Shown one piece after another: positions 42,964 to 54,497 of a stretch of DNA of 64,000 nt. The stretch lies in the NCBI GenBank assembly GCA_023078685.1, contig JALGAS010000012.1, positions 620,001 through 684,000 of the forward strand. The letters are read 5' to 3'. The notes beneath the pieces are model-generated. The model ran no database searches. It was not told the origin of the DNA and saw only the letters and a program-made list of their open reading frames with translations. The stretch comes from Neopestalotiopsis rosae (taxonomy: Eukaryota; Ascomycota; Sordariomycetes; Amphisphaeriales; Sporocadaceae). How positions within the stretch are numbered: position 1 is the stretch's first letter; the number at the start of each line of letters is the position of its first letter. The position numbers and the translations under genes were made by a program.

Positions 42964-45900
42964 TCATATGCTCATATCCCCATCGGAATCATCAGAATCA
43001 TACATATCCTGATCAATCGCCACGACATCGGCGTCGCTCAGCTCAGGCTGTGGTGCGGCGCTCAGTCCTTCATATCGATCTTCCGCAGGATGACCGCCGG
43101 CGCCATTGTTGGCATGAGTGTTGTCGTTGAAAACGAATATGGCATGGTAGCCGGCGTCGTTCCTCTCCCAATAATAGGTCTGCTGACCGGGAAACACGGC
43201 CACAAGGCCGAGGCCGTTGTTGTTGCCAGAAGTGTTGACACCATTGTTCATTGACCATTCGTGCAAAATCATATCCAGCTGAGCAAAGGCCCAGTAACCA
43301 ATGACGTGAGTGCCTAGCATGGCCGGATCAATATTGTCAAAGTCTCCTCTGGCGGCGAGGGTCCCGGAAATGAGAATGAAATCCGCCTCAGTCGGTAGTG
43401 TCACGCCTGCCGGCAACATACCAGGAGGTAATTGATTTTGCAAGCTGGCGATTATTGCTTGTACTGGGTGAGGATTAGCTTTCCGCCTTGACATCTGTCT
43501 ATTCGAATTGGGAAAAGGTCCACTTACAACCACAATGAGGTGCGCTTGCGATGGGAATTTGTCTGTGTCCGTGTGGAAACAATAGATTGTACATGGTTTG
43601 GAGTAAAAAGGCCACATTTCCGTCGCCATTACCGGGTGGAGCGGCGGGCGGAGCAGCAGGAGCAGCACCCGGAGCAGGAGCAACGAGAGGGCCTCCGGGC
43701 GGTGATCCGCCGGCCCCTCCAACAGGCGGTCCTCCTCCTCCTCCTCCAGCTGGCGCTGCTCCTCCTCCTCCTCCTCCTCCTCCTCCTCCTCCACCTCCTC
43801 CACCAGGCCCTCCTCCTCCTCCAGGTGGTGGTACGATAGTACCATCGTAAAACCACCTCTTCACCCATTGACTAATAATGGCATCAGTCTCCACTGGAAA
43901 GGTACCAGGAGCAATATGGGCCTTGGCCTCGGTGAGAAGAGTCTGCAGATCCGGTCGATCATTAGGTCGATGGTACATGCACCGAAAGAGCGTCCGTCTG
44001 AGATCGGGATCGACCAACGGGAAGCGATCGGCGGGTGTGTTGATACCGTCGCACAAGTCCACACAGTAGGATATCGGCCCGTTATAGCCGGCGGCGTCGA
44101 GAATCCCTTGATAGTTGTCTCTCGTCGTTGCGGGTGTCAGGTGGGTAGCCTGGAGAGCGGGAGGAAAAACGGGCATGTGAGGTTGGGGAATCGTTTTGCC
44201 GGTGATGAGAATCCACATGCACTGTATCGTAAGAGATAAGCCAAGAAGAAAAGAAGAAAAAAAAAAGAAAGAAAGAAAGAGAAATCCGGAGTGTATAATC
44301 GGGACTCGGGGAACGGAGCATACCCAAGCAATCTGCCATATGTTCAGCTTGTAGCTGATGTTTCCCGCTACATCATCTAAACCGACATTGTCGCCGTGCA
44401 CAGTTTCCTGTAAAGTCCTTTTCGTGAGTTGGGAAATCAGTATAATCATCCTCTTTCATAGATACAGTGTTTGGACCTACTCCCACTCCGGGCCGAATTG
44501 TTCCTTGGATGGATTAGTCTGTGTTTTTCGTTTCTCATATATAAAACTTACAGGTGCCAGGAAATTCGTCTTGGCGCGTTGCCTCAATTGGAAATAATAT
44601 TGACTGTCGTTCATGGTAAGAAATCGAGACTCGAATAAGATGTTTATATGTATCAGCCACTCACTTTCTCTTGTAGGATTTAATCTTATCTGCCAGACCA
44701 AAATCTGCCAGCTTGGAGATGGTTAGCATAAAAAATGATTAGGGAAAGGGGTCGATTCTCATTTTCTTACCTTTAGTCTTGGGATAAAGGCGTGTTCATC
44801 CGGTTCACGATCCGAACGAGGCGGTACCGAAGGCATAGCTGTCACTGGTGTACCCGATTTCGTAAGACCATTCGCTATTTCATTAGCCCAGTAAGCGGTA
44901 GCGGTCGCGTTTAATTCAAACCCATCAATCAAGACTGGGTTCAAGAGTTAGCCTGGAGACAGGACAATAACGACATGTTTGGAATATGGTATTGCTTACT
45001 ATTATTTGGATCAATGTCAAAATGTATTACATTCTCATTCTTCCGTTGGAGATCTGCAGTGGTTGGTACTTCTTCGTTCAAATCTCCTTGAAGATTCAGG
45101 TGGCGAGCGATATCGGCTGCGTTGGCGCCTTGATATGCCTGTACGTCAATAGCAGCTAGGCTTCGTCTCATTTTGTTGCTCGCTGCGACTGCCGGGACAT
45201 ATTGAGCATTGGGTAATGGTTCAGCATTAAGAAGGCGACGGCTTCTCCTCAAGTGACGATCATTCGTAGTGCGCTCTGCTCCCAAGGGCCTACCAGGTGC
45301 TCTACGGTCCGGGTGAAACTTGTTTGGCGGATACTCGAGACCTACAATTCCTCTAACCACTAGATGAAATAGAGTTTTATCAGATTTTTGTTCTTTTTCT
45401 TATTGCCAATAGAGTAAACCATCGAGTATTTCAACTTACAGCTTAGCCAGAAAGCCCAAAGGACCCTATTGGGGGGTGGTGTGAAAACATCCGCCTCTAT
45501 ACGCCGGTCAATAAGTGCAGCAAGGCTTCCATTCTCCATGTATTCAATCAGGAGCCAATTATTATCTTGGGCTGCATTATTTCTCATCCAGTTATCAAAG
45601 TGCTGATCCCTCGCTGTCCATGCACTCCTCTTCTTGGCAAAATAGTTTCGAGTTCGCAGGCTACGTTGAATCCGTGGCTTGTACATATGCGGGTCGCCGG
45701 CGCCATCCGCATCATCATAATCGGTGAGTTCGTCATGAGAAGAGTCTTCTACCAAGGTCCCTGGTGGTCTCCGGGGCCTAGCCGGGATTCCGGGAGTATC
45801 GAAAAGTTGGATAGAGTGTGCTGCCTGACGCTGCCTCTGTTTGTCGCCCCTCCAGAACGAATTAGTGTTTTGATCAAGTTTGACGTCTTCCCAGGAAGAA

Positions 45901-46571
45901 CAAGGCACGGTGTAAACTTGCATATGTTGCCCGCCTTTCATCCCAAAGTGCCGCGTTGTTGGCAACTAAGGCAACTTTTGAAACAAGTTTTCTGACTACA
46001 CCACCTCCATTATTCTGGTGGTAAAGTATGGCGCAATTCAGACCTCCCTATCCAGCCATGGGCGTTAGTATATTTCTTCCTGATATTGTATAAAGACGCG
46101 CAACATGCATTAGAACAAGCTCTCCCCAGGCCTTATTGCCAAAGACTTGCTGACAGAAGAAAAGCACTAGGGAATACCAACCCTTCCCAATACTCGGTGA
46201 GGAGTCCAGCCACGGGGGATGAAGCCAAGTAAGATTTCGATCTGTTTACGCCGTGCCTGCAATCGAAAGTCCGCGTGGACTGGAGCTAGGGGAGCTGCAT
46301 TCAGGATATGACCGCCCCCCGCCGCGGGAAGTGCAGCACCATAGTTACTATCAACACGTTGGGGTAGTTGGGATTCAAAGATTGGGTGGCGAGTTGGGCG
46401 AGGCACTTGGTGGAATCCTTCCTGCCCGAAATCGGCGTGATTGCTCACAAACGGGACACCCCATGTTGGGATTCTACCAAGCTTTCTGAGCCTGTACAAT
46501 TCAAAATTCTGGTCGGCGACCCCTTTTCCCCACGGTGTCAAGGAATTGTAAACCTCCACTGGATTGGCCAT
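42964..46571 (-). CDS. Kinase-OTU fusion protein, tandem copy A
   Basis: Eleven exons (46182-46571, 45922-46047, 45440-45836, 45000-45359, 44771-44934, 44665-44711, 44552-44603, 44481-44503, 44324-44417, 43528-44221, 42964-43463) give 948 residues in continuous frame. The kinase domain has glycine loop VLGRGGLNCAI, a Lys in LVSKV, LLIEYMENGSLAALI, catalytic loop VIHFDIDPNN, LADFGLADKI and FLAPEQF. The lobe ends RCMYHRPNDRPDLQTLL. A Gly/Pro/Ala linker encoded by a (GGA)n-like repeat follows. The C-terminal domain begins PHCGLQAIIASL and ends IFVFND...AEDRYEGL, an OTU-like layout with Arg where copies B and C have His, so protease activity is probably lost. Intron 2 uses a GC donor (TAT|GCAAGT). 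The first intron splits the glycine loop and is absent from B and C. Predicted cytosolic; cellular role unknown. Confidence 0.8.
43726..43830. repeat. Interrupted TCC/GGA microsatellite coding poly-Gly
   Basis: Plus-strand runs of tcc/ctc repeats with a few interruptions. On the coding (minus) strand they read GGA and encode a Gly tract of more than 20 residues broken by Pro and Ala, between the kinase and OTU-like domains of copy A. Other frames give artefactual poly-Glu, poly-Arg and poly-Leu ORFs on both strands. Confidence 0.85.
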
Positions 46572-54200: not shown

Positions 54201-54497
54201 ATGACGGTGCTTCGTATTCAGTCTGGGGCCCGCTATCTTGGTCAGACTGCTCTGCCTGTCCTTCTGTCGCATCCACCACGTGTCTGGGTTATCCTCGTTG
54301 GCGAATACTCGGGGTAGATAGGGCGCCGGTAATCGAAGATGTTGCCACTCATCCTGTGAGGGTGATTCAGTGGGTCTGATGTGTTCACGTTGTCGATACT
54401 GTCCAAACTGATACATGGACTGTGCCCAATGTCTTCGATATCTATCGGGACTTAAGCGGTCGCAGCCTATTCGAGGGCCAGCTATAGGGGCAGCCAT
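51209..54497 (-). CDS. Kinase-OTU fusion protein, tandem copy C
   Basis: Ten exons (53985-54497, 53481-53919, 53038-53427, 52830-52987, 52732-52778, a 58-nt and a 23-nt exon, a 94-nt exon, 51661-52339, 51209-51606) give about 932 residues. Kinase motifs are ILAKGGQGMAVHF, IVLKMDL, ILLEYMQNGSLQSLI, VVHFDLDPNN, ISDFGLAERI and FLAPEQFGGEWE. The lobe ends RCMYHNPTHRPDLEQLL. An acidic then Gly-rich linker follows. Across the last intron the C-terminal domain reads GDLQCGLQAIADSI, close to the OTU consensus DGxCxxxAIAD, and it ends IYIYSN...TNCHYEGL. Asp, Cys and His are all present, so this is the copy most likely to have protease activity. All its introns are GT-AG; the intron matching the GC ones in A and B here has donor AGA|GTGGGT. 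The start chosen is MAAPIAGPR; an in-frame Met exists near 54689. Confidence 0.82.

Follow-up and report, generated by a model that had tools for sequence, protein, structure and literature searches.

A tandem array of three Neopestalotiopsis rosae genes joining a divergent protein kinase to a predicted OTU-like cysteine domain

Analysis of a 64,000 nt window of the Neopestalotiopsis rosae genome (C4:620001-684000; 53.77 Mb in 17 contigs) identified three head-to-tail genes, designated copies A, B and C, which all lie on the minus strand and encode a divergent eukaryotic-type protein kinase followed by a C-terminal OTU-like cysteine domain. We slightly favour the reading that copies B and C are bifunctional proteins, a kinase with a putative ubiquitin-trimming domain, and that copy A is a decoy or regulator. 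The array combines familiar types of domain in a new and unusual pairing, and its second half represents an OTU-like family missed by the sequence profiles used here.

Gene structure of the tandem array

The gene models of the three copies were spliced by hand, and each is open from ATG to stop codon once spliced. Window positions are as follows (nt, nucleotides; aa, amino acids); the limits of the kinase regions are approximate and span their introns:

51209..54497, minus strand: copy C gene, 10 exons, 932 aa
51955..54131, minus strand: copy C kinase region, from motifs and from Pfam with inserts left out
51209..51757, minus strand: copy C OTU-like domain; Cys codon 51667-51665, His codon 51268-51266, last intron 51660-51607
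47173..50548, minus strand: copy B gene, 10 exons, 944 aa; first intron GC-AG
48041..50190, minus strand: copy B kinase region, from motifs and from Pfam and PDB with inserts left out
47173..47836, minus strand: copy B OTU-like domain; Cys codon 47743-47741, His codon 47259-47257, last intron 47736-47673
42964..46571, minus strand: copy A gene, 11 exons, 948 aa; second intron GC-AG
43841..46208, minus strand: copy A kinase region, from motifs and from Pfam with inserts left out
42964..43618, minus strand: copy A OTU-like domain; Cys codon 43534-43532, Arg 43077-43075 at the His position, last intron 43527-43464

A sequence-only reading of this DNA had proposed three adjacent minus-strand genes with shared exon sizes, and the spliced models bear this out: exons of 47, 23 and 94 nt are common to A, B and C, and exons of 360, 164, 52 and 500 nt to A and B only, where copy C instead has 390, 158, 58 and 398 nt. 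Copy B starts at 50548, and GC donors occur in intron 1 of B and intron 2 of A. The likeness of the copies goes beyond chance, the kinase regions being 39-48% identical in pairwise comparison and the C-terminal domains 31-42%, and the same architecture recurs in Pestalotiopsis fici, a member of Sporocadaceae. Removal of the last intron, also part of that reading, creates the motif [QH]CGLQAI[IVA][AD]S[LI] (HCGLQAIIASL in A, QCGLQAIVDSL in B, QCGLQAIADSI in C), and is supported by the annotated P. fici protein, which reads NAQCGIRALVESV without a break, and by a homologue in the same genome, which has LDCGLRAVIQSL within a single uninterrupted frame. The last intron of copy C (51607-51660, minus strand) is 54 nt long and open in frame; its retention would place extra residues directly after the catalytic Cys-Gly and could serve as a splice switch.

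Copies A and B have several long repeats in common, approximately 4.15 kb apart, and the spacer between B and A resembles the region below A as far as the 5′ boundary of a tRNA gene (42475-42558, minus strand), as expected of a tandem duplication. Around 46755-46770 (minus strand) the spacer keeps sequence like the first bases of the tRNA gene, which points to the 5′ end of that gene as the probable limit of the duplicated unit.

The kinase half

The kinase core motifs predicted from the sequence ([VI]HFD[LI]DPNN, DFG and LAPEQF) were found in all three copies, with the Lys, catalytic Asp, Asn, DFG and APE in order in 3/3 and HFD in place of HRD. Intact copies gave a weak match to Pkinase (PF00069) below the cut-off, with a best E-value (E) of 3.8e-6. 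Long inserts split the kinase domain of each copy, and with these left out all three scored above the PF00069 cut-off (B, E 3.1e-15; A, 1.2e-16; C, 8e-13), and insert-free B gave 980 matches to PDB sequences at E<=0.01. Kinship with RIPK1/RIPK3 was considered and dropped, as their PDB rows were only slightly ahead of those of other kinases. A kinase relative of the array on contig C1 (~5.555 Mb), for which no gene model was built, lacks such a C-terminal domain in its listed reading frames, and a weaker kinase match lies on contig C15 at ~184.8 kb.

The C-terminal domain and its predicted fold

With copy B as query and its C-terminal part as the basis for scoring, a search retrieved PFICI_12075 (P0001) of P. 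fici W106-1 at E 1.2e-40, the sole match at E<=0.01 among 5,329 scored candidates. This protein has the architecture of the array genes and carries in its source only the labels hypothetical or kinase-domain protein; one such protein was found in P. fici, compared with three genes here. Its kinase region is equally close to B (50% identity) and A (51%), while its OTU-like domain (47% to B) groups it with B. A profile search for short relatives returned two fragments among 7,998 scored, P0002 and P0003, which differ from the end of B at 3/135 residues and from the end of A at 4/151, respectively.

A shallow alignment underlies the fold model, which is of the P. fici domain. In a Foldseek comparison of this model with the PDB, rows 1-30 were all OTU proteins, row 31 was unrelated and row 32 was ZUFSP, which places the predicted model within the OTU fold; the Cys caps a core helix and HYEG forms the last strand. 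The C-terminal domain very probably has an OTU fold. The motif at this strand is RYEGL in A, HYEGM in B and HYEGL in C, and the order of Cys and His is that anticipated, with a measured spacing (Arg for His in A) of 115-140 residues rather than about 100.

Single-protein searches of the same genome identified further genes with this domain, and one remnant:

C15, ~862 kb (L029:140-2100), plus strand: OTU-like gene with Cys-rich, zinc-finger-like N-terminal segments before the domain; no Pfam match above cut-off
C15, ~336-340 kb (L045:1030-5498), plus strand: OTU-like gene, the domain ending a 370-aa frame
C11, ~910 kb (L034:1174-3123), minus strand: OTU-like gene, a single uninterrupted 650-aa open reading frame (ORF) with an APH-family kinase fold and the domain
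C10, ~3.96 Mb (L038:1441-1800), plus strand: degraded remnant akin to the C15 340-kb copy; contains stops and lacks the Cys and His

Just upstream of the C15 340-kb gene lie frames of 599 and 502 aa that may be part of it and that match no Pfam family above cut-off. The C11 ORF matches PF01636 at 23.8 bits (cut-off 23.2). The APH motif is HGD; the C11 protein has HGN in its kinase and no His in its OTU-like half, and by its residues both halves look inactive. The spliced C15 protein had no relative at E<=0.01 among 1,937 candidates. Leave-one-out profiles recovered 7/7 aligned members (E 2e-41 to 5.9e-9; best of 1,000 shuffles per member 0.013), from an alignment that was built with all seven beforehand and excluded the C10 remnant.

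Catalytic residues and states of the copies

OTU triads take the form C...H-aromatic-D/N/E (PMC7396840). The full C...H-Y-E set is present in B, C and P. fici, in agreement with this rule, from which A (R-Y-E), the C15 relatives (H-Y-S and H-F-S) and the C11 protein (D-F-R) depart; the Cys is kept in 7/7 aligned members. The full set in B and C, compared with R-Y-E in A, makes B and C candidate deubiquitinases and A a putative pseudo-enzyme. As fragment P0003 also has the Arg of copy A, a sequencing error is unlikely. Cys-His dyads have been reported in OTU-like deubiquitinases (PMC10318531).

Several results weigh against an OTU enzyme. No Foldseek match to the PDB counted at E<=0.001; the five models of the P. 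fici domain had a mean predicted local distance difference test score (pLDDT) of 56 to 73, with model residues 149-161, just before the His, at pLDDT <50, and the full-length model (pLDDT 38) gave no usable arrangement of the two halves. At the sequence level, no Pfam OTU family (PF02338) matched any domain searched (A, B, C, P. fici and the C15 gene) at E<=10, and no OTU was present among the PDB sequences matched by domain profiles. Alignment by hhalign was not significant with five members (E 0.091, 4/100 shuffles as good), and with seven members it covered 15 columns at E 0.038, the global run being without a match. The canonical OTU motif before the helix is D-G-x-C; an Asp three residues before the Cys occurs in copy C only (GDLQC) of the seven members, and a D-G pair in none.

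Because the profile test failed, the family is not filed as PF02338, to which the same genome has two matches that are true OTU. Pfam and PDB sequence searches of the domain gave only weak, unrelated matches, none to another fold being significant, and a match to poxvirus F9/OPG083 (25-26 residues, E 0.45-0.83) was taken as chance. The proposal of a kinase joined to an OTU cysteine protease is partly supported overall: the kinase stands by Pfam without the inserts, and the OTU fold is favoured by structure prediction, while PF02338 is unmatched and the His is absent in A; the signalling, effector or immunity role proposed along with it is speculative.

Comparison with known systems

The domain has the same predicted fold as OTU deubiquitinases such as yeast Otu2, Wolbachia wMelOTU and human OTUD1, OTUD2, OTUD3 and OTUD5, and like them has the Cys on the core helix and, in B, C and P. 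fici, an H-aromatic-acid on the last strand. It differs from them in being unmatched by PF02338, in the Cys-Gly after the Cys, where OTU enzymes have Cys-Leu/Phe, in Glu as the third residue and in the attached kinase. Among the matches listed, no kinase-OTU fusion was found in the open-licence literature, a scope that does not show absence; the main texts of PMC2838846 and PMC9815663 do not contain the term "OTU".

In a viral fold library, the four best matches were proteins of double-stranded RNA mycoviruses (best E 1.1e-7), 768-852 aa in length, three of the four being named coat proteins. We know of no kinase in chrysovirus OTU-like proteins. OTU motifs have been published for chrysoviruses (PMC5086604, PMC5917037, PMC10861612), that of alphachrysoviruses being PGDG(K/S)CGxHA (PMC5086604, PMC10861612); the motif and the domain described here have Cys-Gly-x-x-Ala in common, but not its Asp, second Gly or His. 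Proteins of Betachrysovirus botryosphaeriae and relatives matched the OTU-like model at E 1.2e-6, although PMC10861612 states that betachrysoviruses are without OTU motifs. One viral contig scan gave one pattern match and no relative.

Proposed function and alternative explanations

Each gene would give a single, probably intracellular protein with, in order, an N-terminal region, the kinase, a low-complexity linker and the OTU-like domain. A secreted effector was rejected, with no signal-like hydrophobic stretch at the N-termini as judged by eye without a predictor. As the two halves share one chain, we infer that they may act together. Copies B and C, with catalytic residues in both halves, would most likely phosphorylate a bound client and trim ubiquitin from this client or its complex; alternatively, the kinase half may switch the deubiquitinase half. 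In copy A, which keeps the kinase residues and the Cys and has Arg for the general-base His, the second half would most likely bind ubiquitin uncut, as a decoy or regulator. Catalysis by B or C on ubiquitin is moderately probable. Computation establishes the gene structure, the kinase identity, the predicted OTU-like fold and the residue states, while ubiquitin as the substrate, catalysis, coupling of the halves, the client and the decoy role are inferred.

A serious if unlikely alternative is that the domain has the OTU fold while no copy is a deubiquitinase, and that it binds ubiquitin or another partner and targets the kinase. The loss of the His in A and the C11 relative, the Ser at the acid position of both C15 relatives, the absence of a PF02338 match and the mostly missing Asp before the Cys would all fit such a binding role, but the Cys is invariant in 7/7 and B, C and P. 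fici keep the full C...H-Y-E set despite only 31-47% identity over the domain. It is quite improbable that these genes serve in conflict, as spore killers or in allorecognition or antiviral defence, with a cysteine domain that would harm or mark a target and a kinase that would restrain or sense it, by analogy with Spok. In the Spok proteins of Podospora, a nuclease domain that kills is combined with a kinase domain that confers resistance (PMC6660238), and they resemble the array in having a kinase and a second catalytic domain within one fungal protein; the array is also tandem and diverged with one altered copy, and the best four viral fold matches are mycovirus proteins. However, the second domain of Spok is a PD-(D/E)XK nuclease and its kinase comes last, whereas here the kinase precedes the second domain and no nuclease domain was present among the Pfam matches; the four viral matches represent a shared fold only.

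A papain-like cysteine domain outside the OTU group, such as an EDR1- or MINDY-like type, appears very improbable. EDR1 is a plant protein with this domain ahead of the kinase. Fusion of its papain-like domain to kinases is frequent (PMC10318531), which likens it to the array, and a MINDY-1 chain matched the Cys region at E 0.75; EDR1 (PF14381) was nevertheless not among Pfam matches at E<=10, and OTU enzymes came first among the families listed in the fold comparison. That the fusion is a gene-modelling artefact, with the C-terminal domain on a separate transcript, is extremely improbable: frame and order are equal in three copies and the P. fici annotation, the copy C frame 52339-51209 is open from kinase to domain even with the last intron kept, and the C11 gene has an APH-type kinase fold and the domain in one uninterrupted ORF.

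Neighbouring genes

Among the neighbours tested were an epoxide-hydrolase-type gene, a pyridoxal phosphate (PLP) enzyme, an Rhp7-type repair gene and a short-chain dehydrogenase.

Significance

If B or C cuts ubiquitin, a single protein would add phosphate as well as remove ubiquitin, and the OTU-like enzymes would gain a branch unseen by the sequence profiles used here. The lost His of A next to full sites in B and C offers a ready comparison of decoy and enzyme. More speculatively, and with a rather low probability, this may be an undescribed fungal OTU-like family that was joined at least twice to kinase folds (eukaryotic-type in the array and P. fici, APH-type on C11) and has its nearest viral folds in double-stranded RNA mycoviruses, the active and pseudo-active copies forming a fungal conflict or antiviral module acting on ubiquitin, with exchange between fungus and RNA virus. 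The match to mycovirus proteins makes such gene exchange testable.
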